Source of the DNA: Lachnospiraceae bacterium
GTDB lineage: Bacteria > Bacillota > Clostridia > Lachnospirales > Lachnospiraceae
DNA length: 64,000 bases
Direction of reading: 5' to 3'
Assembly (NCBI GenBank): GCA_017500935.1
Contig: JAFVXW010000016.1
Span: 62,001 to 126,000 of the forward strand
Shown: one piece after another, positions 1,856 to 63,071 of the stretch
Numbering within the stretch: position 1 is the stretch's first letter
Layout of the letters: every line of letters begins with the position of its first letter
Translations under genes and position numbers: made by a program
Notes under the pieces: model-generated
The model's database searches: none
Seen by the model: the letters and a program-made list of their open reading frames with translations, nothing else
Told to the model about the DNA's origin: nothing

Positions 1856-3625
1856 TTACTGTTCTTCCGGGAATGCGTACTGTGCTTTATACTTGGCAAA
1901 CTGCTGGTTGAAGGCAACGCTTTCGTGAAGTTCGCCGGATTTTAAAGCGTTGAGGTACTCATGTGCTTCCAGCTTGCCTTCGGAAACCTGCAGCATTTCG
2001 ACGGCCACATTGGAGCAGTGGTCAGCGGTACGTTCACATGCGGTAAGCAGATCTTCCAGAACGAAGCCGTACTCCACCGTGCACAGACCGTCTCTTAAAC
2101 GGCGGACATGGCGGGATTTTACCTCACGCACGAGACTGTCAACAACCTGTTCCTGGGGTTCAATCTTAATAGCGGAAGCCAGATCGAAGTTTTTATATGC
2201 TGCGACAGTGTGGTCAATAATATCCAGTACCGCCTGTTCCAGAACAGCAAGCTCACCTTTGGCCTGATTGGAAAATTCGATGTTCTTATCTTTGATTTCC
2301 AGTGCGGATTTGGCAACTGCCAGTGCATGGTCACCCATACGTTCAATATCGGAGGTGGTGTACAGCAGGGTGTTTAAAATGCGGTTGTCGCTGACATACA
2401 GATTCATGGCAGACAGTTTTACCAGATAAGTGCCCAGTGCGTCCTGATAGCGGTCTGTGTTGTCTTCCAGTTCTGCAACCTGTTTCATGATTTCGGCATC
2501 AAAGCTTTTGGTCAGTCCGATTGCAAGGTGCATCGCCTGTGCGGCATCCGCAGCCATCTGACCTGCAATTTCATGGGCACGCTGCACCGCAACGGCGGGA
2601 GTTGCCAGCAGACGTTCGTCCAGAAGTTCGATTTTCTGGGGATCCTGCTCCTTGGGGATGAACAGGTATGCCAGTTTTACCAAAAGACCGTTTAAGGGAA
2701 GCAAAACGGCGGTTGCGATCAGGTTAAAGCCGGTATGGATCACGGAAATGTTCCATGCCTGTACAGAATCATTCAAAAAGTTCCATTCTACAAACAAGCC
2801 GATGCCGTAGAACAGGACTGCGAACATCGTGGCGCCTACGACGTTGAATAAAAGATGTACCATCGCAGTGCGGCGCGCGTTGCGGTTGGCACCGATGGCG
2901 CCCATGATGGCGGTGACACAGGTACCGATGTTCTGCCCCAGGATGATCGGAATCGCCGCACCGTATGTGACGGCACCGGTCACACACAGTCCCTGCAAAA
3001 TACCGACAGAAGCGGAGGAGGACTGGATGACAGCGGTTAAAACCGCACCAAACAGGATACCGATCACAGGATTGGAGAAGGAGATCATCAGATCTGCGAA
3101 CCAGCTTTCTGTTTTTAAGAAGGCCATGGAGCTGCTCATCAGATCCATACCCGTCATCAGTGCCATAAAGCCCAGCATAATGGTACCGATGCCTTTTCTC
3201 TTTTCGGATTTTCCCATGTACAGGACAATGCCGATGATACCGATCAGAGGTGACAGGGTGGAAGGCTTGAAAAGATTGATAAGAAAGCTGTCGCCTTCCA
3301 GGCCGCTTAAGGATAAGATCCATGCGGTAATGGTGGTACCTACGTTGGAACCCATGATAACACCGACTGCCTGTTTTAAGGTCATAATACCGGAGTTAAC
3401 AAAGCCCACTACCATGACTGTGGTTGCGGAAGAAGACTGAATCACTGCAGTAACTGCCGCACCCAGCAGAAAACCTTTCCAAACAGTGCCGCTCATTTTT
3501 GCAAGGATCGTCTGCAGTTTACCGCCGGCCTGGCGTTCCAGGGATTTGCCCATCACGTCCATGCCGAATAAAAACAGGGCAAGACCGCCGAAAAGGGCAA
3601 TAATGTTAAAAACATATGTTGTCAT
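1856..3625 (-). CDS. Na/Pi cotransporter family protein with PhoU-like C-terminus
   Basis: A 589-residue inner-membrane protein of the NptA / Na-Pi cotransporter II family. The N-terminal 330 residues hold about nine hydrophobic segments with the two characteristic inverted repeats, each with a QSSSA signature (AVTAVIQSSSATTVMVVGF near 60, and AVLTAVIQSSSASVGILQG near 200). The C-terminal 230 residues are charged and helical and resemble a PhoU domain (TSDIERMGDHALAVAKSALE). It should import phosphate with sodium and may couple to phosphate signalling. It is a single gene with its own promoter and terminator. The PhoR/PhoB-like pair at 6972-9276 is a plausible but unproven regulator. Length is normal for this fused architecture. 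Confidence 0.92.
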   Translation of the reverse strand: MTTYVFNIIALFGGLALFLFGMDVMGKSLERQAGGKLQTILAKMSGTVWKGFLLGAAVTAVIQSSSATTVMVVGFVNSGIMTLKQAVGVIMGSNVGTTITAWILSLSGLEGDSFLINLFKPSTLSPLIGIIGIVLYMGKSEKRKGIGTIMLGFMALMTGMDLMSSSMAFLKTESWFADLMISFSNPVIGILFGAVLTAVIQSSSASVGILQGLCVTGAVTYGAAIPIILGQNIGTCVTAIMGAIGANRNARRTAMVHLLFNVVGATMFAVLFYGIGLFVEWNFLNDSVQAWNISVIHTGFNLIATAVLLPLNGLLVKLAYLFIPKEQDPQKIELLDERLLATPAVAVQRAHEIAGQMAADAAQAMHLAIGLTKSFDAEIMKQVAELEDNTDRYQDALGTYLVKLSAMNLYVSDNRILNTLLYTTSDIERMGDHALAVAKSALEIKDKNIEFSNQAKGELAVLEQAVLDIIDHTVAAYKNFDLASAIKIEPQEQVVDSLVREVKSRHVRRLRDGLCTVEYGFVLEDLLTACERTADHCSNVAVEMLQVSEGKLEAHEYLNALKSGELHESVAFNQQFAKYKAQYAFPEEQ

Positions 3626-3821: not shown

Positions 3822-3850
3822 TTGACACAATAGGCAGATAAATATATACT
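3822..3850 (+). promoter_or_regulatory. Sigma-A promoter of the methyltransferase-like/permease pair
   Basis: Perfect -35 TTGACA (3822-3827), a 17-base spacer and a near-perfect -10 TATACT (3845-3850). The start codon at 3925 leaves a leader of about 70 bases, AT-rich and without an obvious riboswitch fold. The promoter should be intrinsically strong. Confidence 0.8.
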
Positions 3851-3924
3851 GAATTTATATATTATAATTTTTAATATATGCAGAATTTTTGCTGAAAACA
3901 AGAGTGAAACATGGAGGGATACAT

Positions 3925-5283
3925 ATGGATTTTCTGAACATCGTTGCCAGAGGATATACCGGAGAAGCGGTATCCAAGGAGGACTGGGATCTGGATTATG
4001 TGGCATTGCCCCTTAAGGAAATCGTGGATGAATACGAATTGAAACGGCCTGTGGATGAGCTGCTGCTCACAGATCAGGAAAAAGCAGTTCAATATTTTGA
4101 AGCAGCAGTAGAATTTCTTGCGCAAACCGGTATCTACAATCAGTCTACCGGTCGTATCATCCGTCTTACAAAAGAGGAAATTCTGGAAGCGGCTGCCGGT
4201 ATGAACAGGGCGGTTACCGTAGGAAGCGGTAAGGACGCTTTTGTTTTTGAACCCCGTAAGCCCGATTCCACCGTACTGCCCGGCGTGGTAGCGGGAAATC
4301 CCGGCTGCCCCATGAATGAAGATATTTTTTACCGCACAGTGCTTTCCTGGGCCAAGGAACCTGTAGTGGATATGATCACCTGCGGATCTATCGTAGAGGT
4401 GGACGGACATACTGTGCTTCGTGCCGCACCCTCCGAAGTGATCGCTCTTCGCAGGGAGATGAAATACCTCAACCAGATCTGTGAAGAAGTGGGACGTCCC
4501 AATCTGGGCCGTCTTGCTGCAGAGAGCAGTGTTTCTGAGATCGGTGATCTTGCGGCTATGGCACCCGGCGGGTTCCGCCGCGGCGATGCGCACCTGATCG
4601 CGCTGAAAAATGAGTTGACCATCGATAATGACAACCTGATCCGCGTGGCCAATTCCATTGACTCCCCTGTACTTAATGCCTCTCTTGCCTGTGTCATGAT
4701 CGGCGGTATGGCCGGCGGACCGGAAGGCGCTGCAGTGTGTATGATCGCCTCCCTGCTGGCGGATGCGGTGATCGGACGGAGCGATTATCATCTGTGTCAT
4801 CCTATTCATCTGAAATATATTGCTACCTCCACAGCTGAGTGCATGTGGCTGCAGAGTGTAGTATGTCAGGCTTTTGCAGCATGCGCACCTGCTGTTATTG
4901 TCTGTGATATTTATCCCAAGAGCGGTGCAGGTACCAGAGAACTGCTGTGGGAAGTGGCGGCAAACGCTTTGGCAGTCACTGTTTCCGGCGGTCATCTGGA
5001 AGGCGTGGGCTCCTGTGACGGTCTTAAGCCTCACTGCTCCGGTCTGGAAGCCCGTCTGATGGGAGAGGTTGGAAAGGCGGCTGCCCGTCAGGGGCTTACC
5101 AGAGAAACAGCAGCCCCCATCATCCGCGCACTTCTGAAGAAGTACGAGCATATTTTCTCCACAGGCAATGAAGGTCTGCACTTTGATGAGGTGTACGGAG
5201 AAAACGGTGAACCTTGTGACTTCTGGCTGAAGATGTATGAAGAGGTATGGCAGGATCTGGAAGCATTGGGATTACAAAAGTAA
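3925..5283 (+). CDS. MtmB-like methyltransferase lacking pyrrolysine
   Basis: A 452-residue soluble protein that lines up along its length with monomethylamine:corrinoid methyltransferase MtmB of methanogens (about 458 residues). Shared landmarks are DDWDL-type near 20, GIYNQSTGRIIRLTKEEI near 80, GSGKDAF near 115, an AGNPGCPMNEDIF block near 135, EVGRPNLG near 190 and GLEARLMGEVGKA near 380. In MtmB an in-frame amber codon encodes pyrrolysine within GRPGMGVOGPETS. Here the matching segment is GRPNLGRLAAESS with Leu197 (CTT, 4513-4515), and no in-frame TAG occurs. The start at 3925 is supported by GGAGG 8 bases upstream; longer starts lack one. A permease gene follows after 45 bases. The substrate is probably not monomethylamine but another methylated compound. 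No corrinoid protein or reactivase gene is in the window, so a different cofactor partner or a distant locus must be assumed. Confidence 0.8.
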   Translation: MDFLNIVARGYTGEAVSKEDWDLDYVALPLKEIVDEYELKRPVDELLLTDQEKAVQYFEAAVEFLAQTGIYNQSTGRIIRLTKEEILEAAAGMNRAVTVGSGKDAFVFEPRKPDSTVLPGVVAGNPGCPMNEDIFYRTVLSWAKEPVVDMITCGSIVEVDGHTVLRAAPSEVIALRREMKYLNQICEEVGRPNLGRLAAESSVSEIGDLAAMAPGGFRRGDAHLIALKNELTIDNDNLIRVANSIDSPVLNASLACVMIGGMAGGPEGAAVCMIASLLADAVIGRSDYHLCHPIHLKYIATSTAECMWLQSVVCQAFAACAPAVIVCDIYPKSGAGTRELLWEVAANALAVTVSGGHLEGVGSCDGLKPHCSGLEARLMGEVGKAAARQGLTRETAAPIIRALLKKYEHIFSTGNEGLHFDEVYGENGEPCDFWLKMYEEVWQDLEALGLQK

Positions 5284-5328
5284 AAGACAGGCAAAGCCTG
5301 TAAAGAAGTATAAAGGAGGAAATCCAAC

Positions 5329-6912
5329 ATGGAAAAGAAAAAGAGTCTTATTCCATTCTTTACCAAGGGTGATGTCGGTGGATTGGTGTATATGGTTGCC
5401 AACAATATCGTCAATTACATCATCATCATCGCAACTCTGCAGGGGTTCGGCTGGCCGGATGATATTATTTTCGGCCGTGTGATTCCTGCACTGTCTATCG
5501 GCCTTTTGGCCGGCGGCATATATTATGCCTGGATGGCCTGCAAGCTGTCCAGAGAACTGCAGACACCGGATGTTACAGCGCTGCCTTCCGGTATTTCCAC
5601 TCCCGCGATGTTCGTTATTCTTTTTGGCGTGATCAGCCCTTTGCATTATGCTATCGGTGATCCCGAGATTGAATGGGCGGCAGCAGCTGCAGCCTGCTTC
5701 ATCGGTGGCTTTGTGGAATTTCTGGGCGGTTTTGTCGGCCCCTGGATCAAAAAGCATCTGCCCCGTGCAGCCCTGCTTGGTACCGTAGCAGGTATCGGTT
5801 TCATCTGGATGGCTACCGAAGGTGTGTTTGATGTGTTCGCTGATCCTGTTGTGGGTCTGCCTGTACTGGGTGTGGCTATGCTGGGGCTGTTCGCTGGCTA
5901 CGCTTTCCCCAAGAAGATTTCTCCTTTCATGGTAGCTATCGTGGGCGGCATTGTGTATGCTTTCTGCCTGGGCCGTACCAGTTTCGATTTCACTCAGGTG
6001 GGCTTCTATTTCCCCAACCCTGTGAACACGGTACAGGCTCTGATCAATGGTTTTGTGTATGTTATTCCTTATCTTACAGTGGTTATTCCTGTTGAGATCT
6101 ACAACTTTGTTGAAACCATGGATAATGTGGAATCTGCCAATGCTGCAGGTGACGGTTACAGTGTACGTGAAGCACAGTTTGCTGACGGTATCTGCACCAT
6201 GGTCTCTGCTATGCTGGGCGGTGTTGTTCCCAATACTGTATGGCTGGGTCATCCCGGTCTGAAAAAGACCAAAGCCGGTGCCGGATACAGCTGGATCAGC
6301 GGTGTCATTTTGGGACTGGCAGGCGTGCTGGGTCTGTTCACCGTGCTGGACGGTCTGGTGCCTCCGGCTGTGGCGGCCATTACCTTCCTGTGGTGTGCTG
6401 TTATCATCGTGGCACAGGCATTCAAGGAATGCAAACCCAAACATTATGCAGCGATCAGTATCGCTATGGTGCCCTCTATTGCAGACTATCTGTTCACTCA
6501 GGTTGAGGCTGCTCTTGCCACCGGTTCCATGATGGAAGGCGGCTGGGGTATCTGGTCTGAAATGATGGACAGCGGTATCAAGACTTTCCAGCCTGAAGTA
6601 AACGAACTGCTTCTGGTAAACGGCGCAATGTGGTCCGGTGTGCCGGAAGTAAAGGCAGGTGCGATCATTATTGGTATCCTGCTTGGTACACTCGTGGTAT
6701 TTATGATCGACAGAAAGCTGCGCAACGCTTCCTACATCTGTTTTGCAGGTGCTGTTTTATCCATGTTCGGCTTCATCCATCACGGTGCACTTGGATTCTA
6801 TCCTTTATCTCCTTTCGTGATCGGTTGGTTTATCCTTGCAGTCATCCTCTTTGTCCTTGATTTTGGTAAGGGTAAATGGTTTGATGCACCCGATGATTTC
6901 GAATACGTTTGA
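5329..6912 (+). CDS. NCS2-type (xanthine/uracil/AzgA-like) permease
   Basis: A 527-residue polytopic membrane protein with about 12 to 14 hydrophobic segments. The motif block ETMDNVESANAAGDGY, then a GHPG-containing segment and AGAGYSWISGVILGLAG, resembles the signature region of nucleobase:cation symporter-2 proteins of the AzgA type. TPDVTALPSGISTP near 80 corresponds to the conserved TM3 region. It is preceded by a strong AAAGGAGG and lies 45 bases behind the MtmB-like gene, so both are probably on one transcript that ends at the terminator 6920-6952. It presumably brings in the substrate of the methyltransferase-like enzyme. A methylated nucleobase or related ring compound is a guess from the transporter family only. 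Confidence 0.8.
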   Translation: MEKKKSLIPFFTKGDVGGLVYMVANNIVNYIIIIATLQGFGWPDDIIFGRVIPALSIGLLAGGIYYAWMACKLSRELQTPDVTALPSGISTPAMFVILFGVISPLHYAIGDPEIEWAAAAAACFIGGFVEFLGGFVGPWIKKHLPRAALLGTVAGIGFIWMATEGVFDVFADPVVGLPVLGVAMLGLFAGYAFPKKISPFMVAIVGGIVYAFCLGRTSFDFTQVGFYFPNPVNTVQALINGFVYVIPYLTVVIPVEIYNFVETMDNVESANAAGDGYSVREAQFADGICTMVSAMLGGVVPNTVWLGHPGLKKTKAGAGYSWISGVILGLAGVLGLFTVLDGLVPPAVAAITFLWCAVIIVAQAFKECKPKHYAAISIAMVPSIADYLFTQVEAALATGSMMEGGWGIWSEMMDSGIKTFQPEVNELLLVNGAMWSGVPEVKAGAIIIGILLGTLVVFMIDRKLRNASYICFAGAVLSMFGFIHHGALGFYPLSPFVIGWFILAVILFVLDFGKGKWFDAPDDFEYV

Positions 6913-6919
6913 TTTTGGT

Positions 6920-6952
6920 TTCCCGGGACTGTAAAAGGTCCTGGGAATTTTT
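6920..6952 (+). terminator. Terminator after the permease gene
   Basis: Stem TTCCCGGGAC / GTCCTGGGAA (one wobble pair) with an 8-base loop, followed by TTTTT. It lies 8 bases after the permease stop codon and separates this operon from the convergent sensor kinase gene. Confidence 0.85.
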
Positions 6953-6971: not shown

Positions 6972-8606
6972 TTAAAACGCAATGGTAACGGAAGTTCCTT
7001 TTTGCGGGGCGCTTTCCAGCGTGATCTCAGCGTTGTGATAGGCTGCGGCATGCTTGACAATGGAAAGACCAAGACCGGTACCGCCGGATTGCCGGGAGTG
7101 ACTTTTGTCCACACGGTAAAAGCGTTCAAAAATACGGCTGTGATGTTCCGGCGGAATGCCGATACCGGTATCACTGACAGTCAGGCGTCTGTTTTCGACA
7201 TTGATGACAACACTGCCGCCGGGAATATTGTATTTGATGGCGTTGTCGCAAAGATTGTACACCGCTTCCTGAAGAAGACGGCGGATACCTGTTAACGTAA
7301 AGCCATTGCCGGTAAGGGATATGGTAATATTTTTTTGAGCGGCGCTTTTTTCGAGAAGCGCTTTTACTTCCGATGCAAGCTCCAGCATATCCACAGCTTC
7401 CGTAGGCATTACGATACCTTCATCCAGCTGTGACAGGCGTAAGATGTCTTCCACCAGATTAAACAGCCTGGCAGCTTCCCTGCGGATATGTCCGATGAAA
7501 CGAAGCGAATCCTCCGGTTTGACCAGACCGTTTTCCAACAGTTCTGCACTGCCGATAATACTCTGTAAAGGCGTTTTTAATTCATGGGAAACATTGGCGG
7601 AAAACTCCCGGCGCATCTGTTCGGAGCGAAGCTGTTCTGTAATATCAAAAGCAAGCACAACAGCGCCGATCACGCTGCCGTTGGACTGGATACGGCTTAA
7701 GTCAAACTGATAATCCCGTCCGTTTCGTTTGTCTCTGGTATGACCGTGGCCGGAGTCCAGAGCGCGGTTGACAGCCTCACGCATGGTGCTGGTTCTGTCG
7801 ATCTGCAGGAAATTTTTGCCGATACAGTCCTGGCTGGCTTCAAACAGCTGCCGGGCAGCGGGATTGATGCTGAGAATGGTGCCGTCGCTGTCAAGCAGGA
7901 CGAGTCCCTCCTGCATACTGCCTGTGATCTGGTCAAATTCATCGGTTTTTCGCCGCAGCGTTTCCATCTGGGAGCTGATCTGATTGTGCTGGCGGTGGAT
8001 ACGGTGAAGCAGCGGATAAATTTCTTCATACGCTTCATATTTTAAAGGCTGCTCCAGATCCAGTCTGTTGAGCGGCTCCACAATTTTCTGTGCCATCCGG
8101 CGGGCTAAAAATGCGGAGAGGCTGATGGCAATGGCGGCGATCAGAATGATGGGCCAGAGCATGCCAAGCATCAGGGACCATGCGGATTTCTGATTGGCGG
8201 AAATCCTGAGGATCGTGCCGTCTTTTAACTTTTGGGCTTCATAATAGGTCTGTTCCGTCAGAGTGGAGGAAGTGCGGACAGAACTGCCGGAGCCGGTTTT
8301 GAGTGCTGTCTGAATTTCTTCGCGGTCTGCATGATTTTCCATAGAAGTCTGGTCTGCCTGAGTATCAAACAAAACTGTGCCGTCGGCGGATACCCAGGTA
8401 ATACGGAAACGATCAGCTTCCACATTTTCTAAAAAGGCGTTGCCGTACTGCTCTGTGGCGGTTACAGCAAGGCTCAGTTCGTCTTTTAACTGTGCGATCT
8501 GTACCTGGGTGAAATGGGTATACAAAACGCCCATGACCACGCTTAAGCTGCATAAAAGAACCACTGCGGCCACCAAAACCGTGGAACGAAAAATCTTACT
8601 TGTCAT
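6972..8606 (-). CDS. PhoR-like membrane sensor histidine kinase
   Basis: A 544-residue two-component sensor. It has a first transmembrane segment at about 8-30, an extracytoplasmic region to about 145, a second transmembrane segment (LGMLWPIILIAAIAISLSAF), a HAMP-like linker, and a PAS domain (GSMQEGLVLLDSDGTILSIN). The dimerisation/phosphoacceptor segment ANVSHELKTPLQSI has His at about residue 341. The HATPase domain has LCDNAIKYN, DTGIGIPPEH and GGTGLGLSIVKH. This is the order found in PhoR/WalK-type kinases of Bacillota. Its start codon overlaps the end of the response regulator gene by 11 bases, so the two are co-translated. A phosphate stimulus is plausible from the architecture but not shown. 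Confidence 0.92.
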   Translation of the reverse strand: MTSKIFRSTVLVAAVVLLCSLSVVMGVLYTHFTQVQIAQLKDELSLAVTATEQYGNAFLENVEADRFRITWVSADGTVLFDTQADQTSMENHADREEIQTALKTGSGSSVRTSSTLTEQTYYEAQKLKDGTILRISANQKSAWSLMLGMLWPIILIAAIAISLSAFLARRMAQKIVEPLNRLDLEQPLKYEAYEEIYPLLHRIHRQHNQISSQMETLRRKTDEFDQITGSMQEGLVLLDSDGTILSINPAARQLFEASQDCIGKNFLQIDRTSTMREAVNRALDSGHGHTRDKRNGRDYQFDLSRIQSNGSVIGAVVLAFDITEQLRSEQMRREFSANVSHELKTPLQSIIGSAELLENGLVKPEDSLRFIGHIRREAARLFNLVEDILRLSQLDEGIVMPTEAVDMLELASEVKALLEKSAAQKNITISLTGNGFTLTGIRRLLQEAVYNLCDNAIKYNIPGGSVVINVENRRLTVSDTGIGIPPEHHSRIFERFYRVDKSHSRQSGGTGLGLSIVKHAAAYHNAEITLESAPQKGTSVTIAF

Positions 8607-9276
8607 TTCCTGCCTCCAGACGGTAGCCTACATTACGGACTGTTTCAATGATATGCCCGTAACTGCCCAGTTTCTGGCGCAGCGTGCGGATGTGCATATC
8701 TACCGTGCGCGTTTCCACAGAAACGGCAGACTGCCAGACATCGGCCAGAAGCTGTTCTCTGGTAAAGGCAAAACCGGGATGGGATAAAAACAGATGAAGA
8801 AGTTCATATTCTTTGAAAGTTAAAGGTACGCGTTCTCCGTCAATGGTGACGATGTGTTCGGCGGCATTCAGCGCCAGAGTACCAATCTGGAAAAGTGCCG
8901 GATTCTGCGCAGGTTTGCAGCGGCGCAGCACAGCCTTGACACGGCTGATCATTTCCATAATACCAAAGGGCTTGACCAGATAATCGTCAGCACCAAGGTC
9001 CAGACTCTGGATCTTGTCATATTCGGTTCCGCGGGCAGTAGCCATGATGACAGGAATATCCCGGTATTCTTTGGAAGCTTTCAGCATTTTTAAAAGTGTA
9101 ACCCCGTCTTTTCCGGGGAGCATGACATCCAGGATGATGAGTGTTGGCTTTTCATACTGCAGGGCTTCATAAAAACTGTCACCGTCTTCAAAGCCCCGTG
9201 CACAAAAACCGGTGGAAGTCAGGGCATATACTTCGATGTCACGGATACTGGAATCATCTTCCACACACCAGATCAT
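8596..9276 (-). CDS. PhoB/OmpR-family response regulator
   Basis: A 226-residue regulator. The receiver domain (1-115) has the acidic pair at the N-terminus (WCVEDDSS), the phosphoacceptor Asp in ILDVMLPGKDG and the conserved Lys in DDYLVKPFG. The C-terminal winged helix (130-226) has LTFKEYELLHLFLSHPG and VDMHIRTLRQKLG, typical of OmpR/PhoB DNA-binding domains. It is the first gene of a two-gene unit with the sensor kinase and carries AAAGGAGG before the ATG. Its targets are unknown; the Na/phosphate symporter 5 kb away is one candidate. Confidence 0.92.
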   Translation of the reverse strand: MIWCVEDDSSIRDIEVYALTSTGFCARGFEDGDSFYEALQYEKPTLIILDVMLPGKDGVTLLKMLKASKEYRDIPVIMATARGTEYDKIQSLDLGADDYLVKPFGIMEMISRVKAVLRRCKPAQNPALFQIGTLALNAAEHIVTIDGERVPLTFKEYELLHLFLSHPGFAFTREQLLADVWQSAVSVETRTVDMHIRTLRQKLGSYGHIIETVRNVGYRLEAGNDK

Positions 9277-60782: not shown

Positions 60783-63071
60783 ATGACAAACAAAGCGGTT
60801 TGTTTACAGAATGCTTCATGGATCTCGACGGGAGGTGCATGCAGCACTCCCATGTTCAGGGGAAGTTTTGATGCTTTTGATGTGAAGCAAGCCAGACTGA
60901 CCATTGCCGGACTGGGAACCTATGAATGTTATATCAATGGAAAAAGAGTCGGCGAGGATCTTTTTTTGCCGCTGAGCACAGATTTTAATGCCCGTCCTCA
61001 TATGACCTATATGGGGCATCCTTTTTTGGAGGAGATGGGACACAGACTGTACTGTCCGGTTTATGATGTGACTTCTTATCTGAAAGAGGGGAAAAATGCG
61101 GTCTGCTTTCTGATGGGACCGGGCTGGTATGAGCTGAATGAATGGGACTGCGGTTACGGCAGAATAAAGCTGGCATTTATGCTTACAATGACAGATTCTT
61201 ACGGAAATATTTCGTATGCAGTTTCCGGTCCTGATATGGAATGGAAGGAAAGTTTTGTAAAAGAAGCCTTTCTGACTACTGGCGAAAAGCAGGATTACCG
61301 CGGTTATGATGACAACTGGATGATTCTGGATGAAAACGGAGAATGGGCGGACGGTATGACGGAAACCGGTAGCGGCAAATCCACGACTGTCACAGATAGG
61401 TTCTGGAAGCCTGTTGTGACAGAGCCTGCTCCGGAAACCTGCCTTTATGAGCAGGATTGTCCGGCGGACAGGATCGCACGCTATATTACTCCTGTGCTTT
61501 TATCAGAAAAAGACGGTGTCCGTCTTTATGATCTGGGGGAAATGATCACCGGTTATCAGATTTTTTATACAAAGGCAGAGGCTGGCAGCGAGATTAAGGT
61601 TCGTTATGGAGAGTCACTGGATGAAAACGGCAGGCTGGATGAGGAGAAGATTTTTAACCAGCACACGGATTTTATCACGGATGGAAAAGAACGTGCTTTG
61701 CACTGTCATTTTACCTGGCTGTGTTTCAGGTACTTTGAAGTGACCGGTGATGCGCAGGTGGGAGAATGCGCGGTGATCCACAGTGATATTGCGGTGAATT
61801 CTTCCTTTGAAAGCAGCAGTCCGGTATTAAACTGGCTGCGGGATGCCTATATCCGTACACAGTTAAACAATATGCACTGCGGTATTCCCTCTGATTGTCC
61901 GCATATCGAGCGCCGCGGCTATACCGGCGACGGTCAGCTTACCTGTCATACGGCCATGCTGCAGCTGGATGCGCAGAAATTTTATAAAAAATGGATTTAT
62001 GATATTGCAGACTGTCAGGATAAAAAAACCGGACATGTGCAGTATACCGCACCCTTTATGCCCTCCGGCGGCGGTCCGGGCGGCTGGGGATGCGCCATCG
62101 TGGTGGTGCCGTATATGTATTATAAGCATTACGGCGACACAGAAATTCTGCGGGAACTGTATCCGCAGATGCTGTTCTGGTTTGAGTCACTGGAAGCACA
62201 CAGTGAAAATGAGCTGGTGACCTCCGATTTTCCGGATGCGTGGTGTCTGGGGGACTGGTGTGCGCTTGCCATGGGCTTTAATGTGCTGAAAGCTATGGTG
62301 CTGCCGGAGCCGTTGGTAAATACCTATTTTTATATCAAATCCATGGAAAGGGTTCTGGAGATCGGACGGATTCTGGGAATCCATGAAAATGATGAACTGC
62401 TGAAAAAGCGGATCGCCCGTAAAAATAAGGCTCTTGTGGAAGTATATTTTGACCCGGAAACGGGCAATTTTGCCAACAACGAGCAGGGAAGCAATGTGTT
62501 TGCACTGGATCTGGGACTGGGAGATGCGCGTACGCTTGTAAATACGGTACGGTTTTATGAGGAATTCGGACAGTATGATACCGGTATTTTTGCTACGGAT
62601 ATTCTGACCGGATATCTGTTTGACAATGGCAGGGCAGATCTGGCGATTCGGCTTCTGACCTCTGAAAAAGAATATACTTTTTATGACCGGATGAAAATGG
62701 GAGCAACCACGATACCTGAATACTGGACAGGCCATCGTTCCCAGTGTCATCCCATGTTTGGCGCGGTCTGCCGCTGTTTGTTTGAATATGTACTGGGCAT
62801 TCGCCAGACCCCTGATTCCGTACGCTTTGAAAAGGTGATCATTGAGCCTATGTGCATGGAACAGGTAAAACGGGCAAAAGGACACATCACCACAGCTTCC
62901 GGTGTGATTTCGGTGGAATACGATGAAGAGAAAATCTGCGTGCATGTGCCGGAAGGCGTAAAAGCAGTGCTTAAGCTTGATGGTGAGGAAATTGAGCTGA
63001 ACAGTGTAATGCATCCAGCAGGTGCAATGCATCCGGCAGGTGCAATGGAGTTTTTTAGAAAGAAAGTGTGA
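60783..63071 (+). CDS. Alpha-L-rhamnosidase (GH78)
   Basis: A 762-residue cytoplasmic glycoside hydrolase. The N-terminal carbohydrate-binding-like part has TIAGLGTYECYINGKRVGED near 40 and FLPLSTDFNARPHMTYMGHP. The (alpha/alpha)6 catalytic domain starts near 330 and holds CGIPSDCPHIERRGYTGDGQ near 370, equivalent to the GH78 signature with the general-acid Glu, and TTIPEYWTGHRSQCHPMFGA near 640. It should release rhamnose from plant glycosides or polysaccharides imported into the cell. A 6-residue MHPAGA repeat sits near the C-terminus. There is no signal peptide. Co-transcription with the reductase upstream is likely. Confidence 0.92.
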   Translation: MTNKAVCLQNASWISTGGACSTPMFRGSFDAFDVKQARLTIAGLGTYECYINGKRVGEDLFLPLSTDFNARPHMTYMGHPFLEEMGHRLYCPVYDVTSYLKEGKNAVCFLMGPGWYELNEWDCGYGRIKLAFMLTMTDSYGNISYAVSGPDMEWKESFVKEAFLTTGEKQDYRGYDDNWMILDENGEWADGMTETGSGKSTTVTDRFWKPVVTEPAPETCLYEQDCPADRIARYITPVLLSEKDGVRLYDLGEMITGYQIFYTKAEAGSEIKVRYGESLDENGRLDEEKIFNQHTDFITDGKERALHCHFTWLCFRYFEVTGDAQVGECAVIHSDIAVNSSFESSSPVLNWLRDAYIRTQLNNMHCGIPSDCPHIERRGYTGDGQLTCHTAMLQLDAQKFYKKWIYDIADCQDKKTGHVQYTAPFMPSGGGPGGWGCAIVVVPYMYYKHYGDTEILRELYPQMLFWFESLEAHSENELVTSDFPDAWCLGDWCALAMGFNVLKAMVLPEPLVNTYFYIKSMERVLEIGRILGIHENDELLKKRIARKNKALVEVYFDPETGNFANNEQGSNVFALDLGLGDARTLVNTVRFYEEFGQYDTGIFATDILTGYLFDNGRADLAIRLLTSEKEYTFYDRMKMGATTIPEYWTGHRSQCHPMFGAVCRCLFEYVLGIRQTPDSVRFEKVIIEPMCMEQVKRAKGHITTASGVISVEYDEEKICVHVPEGVKAVLKLDGEEIELNSVMHPAGAMHPAGAMEFFRKKV
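63009..63044 (+). repeat. Two tandem 18-bp repeats within the rhamnosidase gene
   Basis: ATGCATCCAGCAGGTGCA is repeated immediately with one base change. The pair encodes MHPAGA twice near the C-terminus. The in-frame unit length allows copy-number change without frameshift. Confidence 0.85.

Follow-up and report, generated by a model that had tools for sequence, protein, structure and literature searches.

The first demonstrated function of an MtmB homologue that lacks pyrrolysine, as the 2026 report on it puts it, is that of MtqB from Methanococcoides methylutens Q3c, which demethylates tetramethylammonium and choline (PMC13044021). The MtmB tree of 2026 comprises 1,061 sequences, some with pyrrolysine and others without it; the functions of the remaining non-pyrrolysine members are there said to "have remained elusive" (PMC13044021). 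A non-pyrrolysine protein of the MtmB superfamily was the most increased protein in dichloromethane-grown strain DCMF (PMC9768040), and MttB, MtbB and MtmB are described as sharing no significant sequence homology (PMC9842639). Here we report on a two-gene unit in the genome of a Lachnospiraceae bacterium (assembly GCA_017500935.1; 3.56 Mb in 87 contigs, completeness 95%, contamination 5.7%), in which a gene for an MtmB-family protein without pyrrolysine is followed by a gene for a purine-type permease. The unit lies in the window, by which we mean the whole stretch of 64,000 nucleotides analysed (positions 62,001 to 126,000 of JAFVXW010000016.1, here contig C84). We put at about one half the probability that it is an operon for the uptake and demethylation of an N-methylated purine, most likely N-methyladenine. 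Its features, in window positions, are these:

3822..3850, plus strand: promoter-like site of sigma-70 type, TTGACA-N17-TATACT, with 11/12 consensus matches
3925..5283, plus strand: gene for an MtmB-family methyltransferase without pyrrolysine, 452 residues (from PF05369, the MtmB1 structures and the alignment)
4513..4515, plus strand: CTT codon of Leu197, the counterpart of MtmB pyrrolysine 202 (from the alignment)
5329..6912, plus strand: gene for a purine-type permease, a membrane transporter of 527 residues (function from context, without a Pfam family)
6920..6947, plus strand: terminator-like hairpin followed by a T run (from the sequence scan)

The 452-residue product matches the Pfam family PF05369 (MtmB) over profile positions 2-450 of 450 with 280.3 bits and an E-value of 3.6e-83, the family cut-off being 25 bits, which bears out the likeness along the whole length that an earlier, sequence-only reading of this DNA had seen by eye. 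A phmmer comparison with solved structures (E up to 1) matched two distinct sequences, both of them M. barkeri MtmB1 (1l2q/1nth and 1tv2-1tv4; E about 1e-57), and these alignments run without a gap through the pyrrolysine site, placing MtmB residue 202 (pyrrolysine, X in 1l2q) opposite window residue 197. When 58 MtmB gene hits were aligned with MAFFT, the single TAG of all 12 pyrrolysine genes stands in this same column, where the window gene has CTT and no in-frame TAG elsewhere; the correspondence of pyrrolysine 202 and Leu197, the codon and the lack of TAG were all as first read. Leucine occupies the site in 9/9 members of the clade described below, and the other non-pyrrolysine genes carry Thr, Met, Gly, Ala, Ile, Val, Cys, Lys or Tyr, or a gap in two fragments. 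The in-frame TAG at residue 202 that marks MtmB proper is therefore missing from the window gene and from the entire clade. We rejected a pyrrolysine gene, intact or degraded, as the identity of the window gene, since it has neither TAG nor an internal stop and stands in a separate clade. By homology to 1nth/1l2q the protein is expected to fold as a TIM barrel.

The window protein belongs to a clade of nine loci that is new within the known family of non-pyrrolysine MtmBs. Its nearest known counterparts come from animal-gut dwellers: a metagenome-assembled genome (MAG) from goat caecum (L038, 88% identity to the window protein) and one from horse faeces (L039, 72%); the remainder are Clostridium sp. 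MCC353 (L040, 53%) and five other genera of the window's family (L074-L078). PF05369 was found in 28/398 genomes of a phylum sample, pyrrolysine genes included; in 7/200 genera of a family sample, one with a pyrrolysine gene; in 3/391 genomes of a class sample, namely the window's own and two with pyrrolysine genes, so that no clade member was added; and in 1/13 genomes of a genus sample, again the window's own. A scan of named genomes supplied three loci, and a plasmid search for the methyltransferase gave no match. Three duplicate gene hits were excluded from the tallies, and the analysis also leaves aside the partial MtmB hits G047:C13, G315:C7, G186 (two) and the second G321 hit, the fragment L037 (G418) and the two pyrrolysine genes of the class sample. 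In a maximum-likelihood tree of 50 rows, from which 8 of the 58 hits (L078 among them) were omitted as shorter than 380 residues, the clade has 100/100 support (n=8 full-length). It joins the pair L043 and L049 with support 100/99, a join to which a long-branch warning applies, and the 11 pyrrolysine rows make up a group of their own (100/100), outside which the window clade falls; the order of the deep groups is weakly supported, with long branches flagged. The sister gene L049 (G198) lies, by eye, near glycine cleavage system-like, lipoate ligase-like and glycine/sarcosine reductase subunit-like genes. Elsewhere in the alignment, the MtmB-like gene of L071 (G060) is in two overlapping pieces in different frames and looks broken or like an assembly error.

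The residues around the site differ along with it. At the positions of MtmB Glu229, Glu259 and Gln333, which we take to be pyrrolysine contacts, 9/9 clade members have Leu224, Leu254 and Asp328. Trp308 is found in 9/9 clade, 2/2 sister and 27/29 other non-pyrrolysine sequences versus 0/12 pyrrolysine sequences, and four cysteines (C256, C306, C314 and C327) are the clade's own, in 9/9 members versus 0/12 pyrrolysine sequences; the clade keeps the glycines and acidic residues that the family conserves. The changed contacts and Trp308 give only a hint that the pocket may have taken a new shape, one suited to a flat or cationic substrate. Near neutral pH, adenines methylated on the ring carry a partial positive charge, and because of it they would be expected to be easier to demethylate.

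The pairing with the permease is conserved in the gene order. The permease gene lies directly downstream of the methyltransferase gene on the same strand in 7/9 clade loci, with gaps of 18-66 bp (45 bp in the window), and the exceptions, G478 (L074) and G418 (L078), are whole assemblies without such a permease; in G418 a Bmp-type nucleoside-like ATP-binding cassette (ABC) transporter and apt stand directly upstream of mtmB. Among 200 genera of the family, a window-type mtmB is present in 6 and a close permease in 5, with both in 4, always adjacent (Fisher p 1.2e-6; a sixth permease match, 26% identical, at locus L162 was left uncounted). A chance neighbourhood was rejected in view of the recurrence of the pair in 7/9 loci with differing surroundings. 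In the window, GGAGGG at 3913-3918 precedes the methyltransferase ATG at 3925 and AAGGAGG at 5313-5319 precedes the permease ATG at 5329, and the promoter-like site and the terminator-like hairpin enclose the pair. That promoter-like site ranks best of 11 in the scanned region, where shuffles expect 4.2 +/- 2.0 sites, and the hairpin is one of 10 terminator-like sites, where shuffles expect 3.5 +/- 1.9. Since homology, residue site, pair and enclosing promoter and terminator were all found, the observation on which the sequence-only reading was built is confirmed. Its further proposal, an uptake and demethylation system, stands as far as the pairing goes (7/9 clade loci, 4/5 genera with a close permease), while demethylation stays a matter of prediction; the tree of non-pyrrolysine members, with its 100/100 clade, and the permease's conservation directly downstream in those loci, to which it had looked, speak for the pairing.

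The permease was assigned by its context. PF00860 (NCS2) gave no match for the window permease (E up to 1) or for six relatives (E up to 10), a search in which it scored 141 bits on a different transporter gene in L162, and at E up to 10 nothing in the PDB was matched by a profile built from nine permease relatives. Membership of the Pfam NCS2 family by hidden Markov model (HMM) was accordingly rejected; of the earlier call of an NCS2-type, nucleobase-type permease, the nucleobase part is supported by the purine neighbourhoods, with NCS2 unconfirmed. Among its plasmid relatives the annotations run from "xanthine/uracil/vitamin C permease" at 36-38% identity and "NCS2 family permease" at 27% to "regulator" and "hypothetical protein".

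Close permeases (47-64% identity) without an adjoining mtmB have an adenine deaminase neighbour in 3/3 loci (L161 in G542, L212 in G006 and L213 in G213), with TIGR01178 scores of 630, 621 and 625 bits against a cut-off of 472.5 bits; each of the three also carries a second deaminase-like gene, and G213 has MtmB-family genes elsewhere, one of which (L047) has another permease (53% identity) nearby. Two loci that do carry the mtmB-permease pair, L038 and L075, have a divergent upstream adenine deaminase (628 and 595 bits). An adenine deaminase over the cut-off was found in 6/9 clade genomes versus 0/9 non-carrier genus members searched, a comparison that does not control for relatedness. More distant permeases (36-38%) lie directly 3' of xdhA-xdhB-xdhC in four Roseobacteraceae plasmid records, with guaD next in three, so that xdhABC precedes the permease in 4/5 Rhodobacterales records viewed. 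It is because of these adenine deaminase and xdhABC neighbourhoods of its relatives that the window transporter is most likely a purine permease, and our best guess for the cargo of the close permease group is adenine. Enterobacterial and Pseudomonas relatives (27-29%) adjoin fdrA/DUF1116/carbamate kinase, nucleoside deaminase or amidohydrolase genes. As a side observation, 65 Escherichia plasmid records match the permease, those among the matches listed being 28-29% identical and mostly annotated as hypothetical; on the E. coli plasmid p135-3 (L181) the relative stands beside fdrA, DUF1116 and carbamate kinase genes. In a scan of 17 permease loci, close and distant and none with a clade mtmB, an adenine deaminase was found in three, a xanthine-dehydrogenase-type gene within about 4 kb in one, a PucR-type gene in three and a seed-type amidohydrolase in two; L212, L215 and L216 have no called genes and L227 has one, so that marker searches alone count there, and L195 and L162 (the locus of the 26% relative) lay outside the scan. 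By eye, L161, L223 and L224 are also near purine-biosynthesis genes.

Purine genes also recur around the wider MtmB family. Strict markers (a xanthine-dehydrogenase-type large subunit, an 8-oxoguanine-deaminase/SsnA-type amidohydrolase or a Bmp-type transporter within 8 kb) were sought by tblastn (E 1e-10), with seeds partly from counted loci and picked after the neighbourhoods had been viewed; the totals are unchanged once same-genome seeds are excluded, and many flanks are cut by contig ends. Such markers accompany 17/34 other non-pyrrolysine genes (11/19 genomes) versus 0/12 pyrrolysine genes; 3/9 clade genes have a purine marker, adenine deaminase counted too. Among 20 control stretches (8.9-19.5 kb) one has a marker; these were drawn from clade genomes, genus relatives and the window genome itself, not from genomes that carry the other non-pyrrolysine genes; for most of them the reason for fetching was a corrinoid or activase gene, and L228, fetched for an adenine-deaminase-like gene, is omitted. 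By genome and with the clade included, the counts are 14/28 versus 0/9 for pyrrolysine genomes (Fisher p 0.007). HMM scores of representative neighbours were 679 bits for PucD/xanthine dehydrogenase (below the cut-off of 784), 637 bits in L042 and 523 bits in L055 for 8-oxoguanine deaminase (over and below 532), 688 for SsnA (over 455), 186 for Bmp PF02608, 102 for PucR PF07905 and 367 for methyltetrahydrofolate:corrinoid methyltransferase (over 259). Purine context marks about half of the sampled bacterial genes, not all. Particularly dense clusters occur at L052-L055 (G028, G295), where each genome carries a pair of mtmB-like genes together with corrinoid proteins, an MtrH-type methyltransferase, SsnA, xanthine-dehydrogenase-type subunits and a Bmp-type ABC transporter, and these are good candidates for methylxanthine or methylpurine catabolism. 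The methylated purine at which the sequence-only reading guessed thus finds support in several separate neighbourhoods, though not in all that were viewed, and the exact substrate is one we infer.

What sets the clade apart is the lack of a corrinoid protein gene next door. None was found within 8 kb, or up to the contig end, of any of the nine clade genes, nor in the 10 kb beyond the window upstream (L041), as compared with 32/34 other non-pyrrolysine and 12/12 pyrrolysine genes that have one (clade versus other non-pyrrolysine genes, Fisher p 1e-7). Neither corrinoid protein nor reactivase was found in the window, as had been noted from its letters: the host genome has one match each to PF02607 and PF14574, both on contig C63 and not on the window contig, which goes some way to answer the concern over their absence. 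The C63 cluster (L131) comprises a stand-alone corrinoid protein, an AcsV/RamA-type activase, two URO-D/MtaA-type methyltransferases and a PocR-type regulator, all named by similarity at scores below the NCBIfam cut-offs. A stand-alone corrinoid protein (an open frame under 300 residues, counted by hand among the matches listed) is encoded in 6/6 family genomes with a clade gene versus at least 32/194 without, and two of the named-genome relatives, G609 and G610, each encode a PF02607 protein of fewer than 300 residues along with an activase match. The clade's corrinoid partner is probably encoded elsewhere in the genome.

For the methyl acceptor we turned to PF00809, which has one match in the window genome, a methionine-synthase-like gene, and some match in 7/9 clade genomes. 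The host gene (L229:6181-7920, minus strand; G000 contig C13) encodes 580 residues with homocysteine and pterin domains and no B12 domain; in 10/10 genus relatives examined the PF02607 match is in an open frame of 819 residues or more, presumably a full MetH. Since the host's sole PF02607 match is the C63 corrinoid protein, that protein and the B12-less methionine synthase may work together.

We propose that the permease would import a methylated purine base, which the MtmB-like protein would bind at the spot where pyrrolysine holds methylamine in MtmB. The methyl group would be passed to the Co(I) corrinoid carried by a protein whose gene lies elsewhere in the genome (contig C63) and then to tetrahydrofolate or homocysteine, and the freed purine would enter ordinary salvage or deamination by adenine phosphoribosyltransferase or adenine deaminase. 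Observed are the membership of the family, the absent pyrrolysine, the conserved pair, the purine neighbourhoods of the permease and the host's genes for a corrinoid protein and an activase; which reaction takes place, on what substrate, with which corrinoid protein and to which acceptor the methyl group goes, we infer. We hold it an even bet that the window enzyme is a corrinoid-dependent demethylase of a methylated purine; a methyladenine as its specific substrate is a tentative assignment that is more doubtful than this.

A number of observations weigh against the proposal. On the side of the purine, the best adenine deaminase match of the window genome, at 443 bits, falls under the 472.5-bit cut-off; in 6/9 clade loci the permease is the sole purine-type neighbour or, at L074, there is none; the fifth Rhodobacterales record, from Paroceanicella (34%), has AtzE and cysteine hydrolase genes in place of xdh; and 8/17 scanned permease loci lack a purine marker. 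Likewise 17/34 other non-pyrrolysine genes are without a strict marker, those that do have purine neighbours lie in clades far from the window's (mostly 23-33% identity), and neither L043 nor L049 of the sister pair has one, L049 having just a PucR-type gene. On the side of the corrinoid, the choice of the C63 protein as partner is assumed; the C63-type cluster has URO-D-type methyltransferases of its own and is present in the mtmB-less genus members G596 and G601; G608, host of the 88% relative, is without corrinoid protein and activase matches, though its genome is a MAG of 1.8 Mb; and activase matches occur in 18/19 genomes searched, non-carriers included, and are therefore not specific. 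The purine argument rests on the close permease group and the clade loci, so that the counts of 4/5 and 8/17 leave our confidence unchanged. As an observation apart, the host's adenine-deaminase-like gene (443 bits; L228:8817-11971, minus strand, G000 contig C74) adjoins an amidohydrolase whose best match is 5'-deoxyadenosine deaminase, at 368 bits and below the cut-off.

Other explanations must be set beside this one. The enzyme could be a corrinoid methyltransferase whose substrate is a ureide or an N-methyl ring other than a purine, such as methylhydantoin, methyluracil or methylnicotinate, with the permease carrying that compound; the transporter family does appear broader than purines, given that its distant members (about 27-34%) adjoin fdrA/DUF1116/carbamate kinase, AtzE, nucleoside deaminase and amidohydrolase genes, but the close permeases without mtmB adjoin adenine deaminase in 3/3 loci, and we consider such a substrate unlikely. 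For N-methylhydantoin, which the sequence-only reading had listed among candidate substrates, nothing seen gives support in the clade. Nor do we favour a demethylase of a quaternary or simple amine, similar to MtqB, with a permease that is incidental or serves independent adenine salvage. Tetramethylammonium and choline are indeed the substrates of the first non-pyrrolysine MtmB described as having a demonstrated function (PMC13044021), an assignment that the sequence-only reading does not mention; the permease, however, is directly downstream in 7/9 loci whose surroundings otherwise differ, which is hard to call incidental, and inspection by eye, with no dedicated search, showed no amine transporter next to the clade genes, so that we regard this account as quite unlikely.

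The absence of a corrinoid neighbour (0/9 versus 32/34 and 12/12) and the four cysteines peculiar to the clade would also suit a protein that has left corrinoid chemistry altogether and now acts as some different sort of purine-linked enzyme, or in binding or regulation. All six family carriers, however, have genes for a stand-alone corrinoid protein and for one of activase type, and the glycines and acidic residues conserved in the family are kept, which makes this improbable. We return to the corrinoid-dependent demethylation of an imported methylated purine. Stated for the clade, it would be an oxygen-independent N-methyladenine demethylase with an adenine-type permease, and more broadly many bacterial non-pyrrolysine MtmBs may demethylate methylated purines (methylxanthines, methylguanines, methyladenines); we offer this reading, for the clade and for the wider family, as a possibility, with more doubt than confidence.

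The surroundings of the pair are as follows. One flank is a Na/Pi cotransporter gene with PhoU domains (window 1856-3625) on the opposite strand, whose full-length genus relatives, sought as a marker of the ancestral empty site, are only 34-45% identical. The other flank (window 6972-9276), also on the opposite strand, is by eye an apparent sensor kinase and response regulator pair. A transfer RNA scan of the window found none, and Rfam at gathering thresholds found no purine riboswitch in the window and eight related loci, the sole match of that scan being a T-box in L076. A small open reading frame of about 87 residues stands 3' of the permease at L040:12965-13228, L075:11091-11354 and L213:9464-9718, the last without an adjoining mtmB; it matches no Pfam family over the cut-off (the L040 copy has a weak CDC48_N match, 18 bits versus 35), and no match lies beside the window pair. 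In Clostridium sp. MCC353 an ADP-ribosylglycohydrolase-family gene (L040:8470-9492; PF03747, 193 bits) is upstream of the mtmB-like gene, and one may speculate that its product could release the base from a nucleoside-like precursor.

If our proposal is correct, anaerobes such as those of animal guts would salvage methylated DNA or RNA bases together with their methyl groups, and there would be an anaerobic route of purine demethylation linked to one-carbon metabolism, perhaps for caffeine-type compounds too. Among the best literature matches, in a search that most subscription journals fall outside, none describes an anaerobic or corrinoid-dependent demethylation of methylated purines. For a large share of the sampled bacterial members the neighbourhoods point to a substrate class that can be tested, methylated purines, and for the clade to methyladenine.

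Compared with known systems, the window protein is closest in sequence to MtmB (PF05369; PDB 1nth/1l2q), with homology over the full 450 positions, the same site region and an expected TIM barrel; it differs in having Leu197 in place of pyrrolysine and other residues in place of the presumed pyrrolysine contacts, and in having a purine-type permease as neighbour in place of an adjacent corrinoid gene. MtqB is likewise a non-pyrrolysine MtmB, and corrinoid-dependent methyl transfer is predicted for the window protein as well; as far as its description allows comparison, MtqB differs in its quaternary amine substrates and in its corrinoid partner MtqC, which has the neighbouring locus tag. The non-pyrrolysine members of the MttB family (MtgB, MtcB, MtyB) offer a functional analogy, in that loss of pyrrolysine goes with new N-methyl substrates, but they belong to a protein family distinct from MtmB; MtpB is another such member. 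The Roseobacteraceae plasmid permeases in xdhABC(-guaD) operons share 36-38% identity over 89-92% of the window permease and stand in a purine operon in 4/4 cases viewed; they differ in having no MtmB-family methyltransferase in the stretches viewed, and their hosts are aerobes. Aerobic bacteria have oxygen-dependent methylxanthine N-demethylases, such as the alkylxanthine N-demethylase of P. putida CBB5, which use oxygenase chemistry and are unrelated proteins. These enzymes also strip N-methyl groups off purines, whereas the window system would need no oxygen and would conserve the methyl group.

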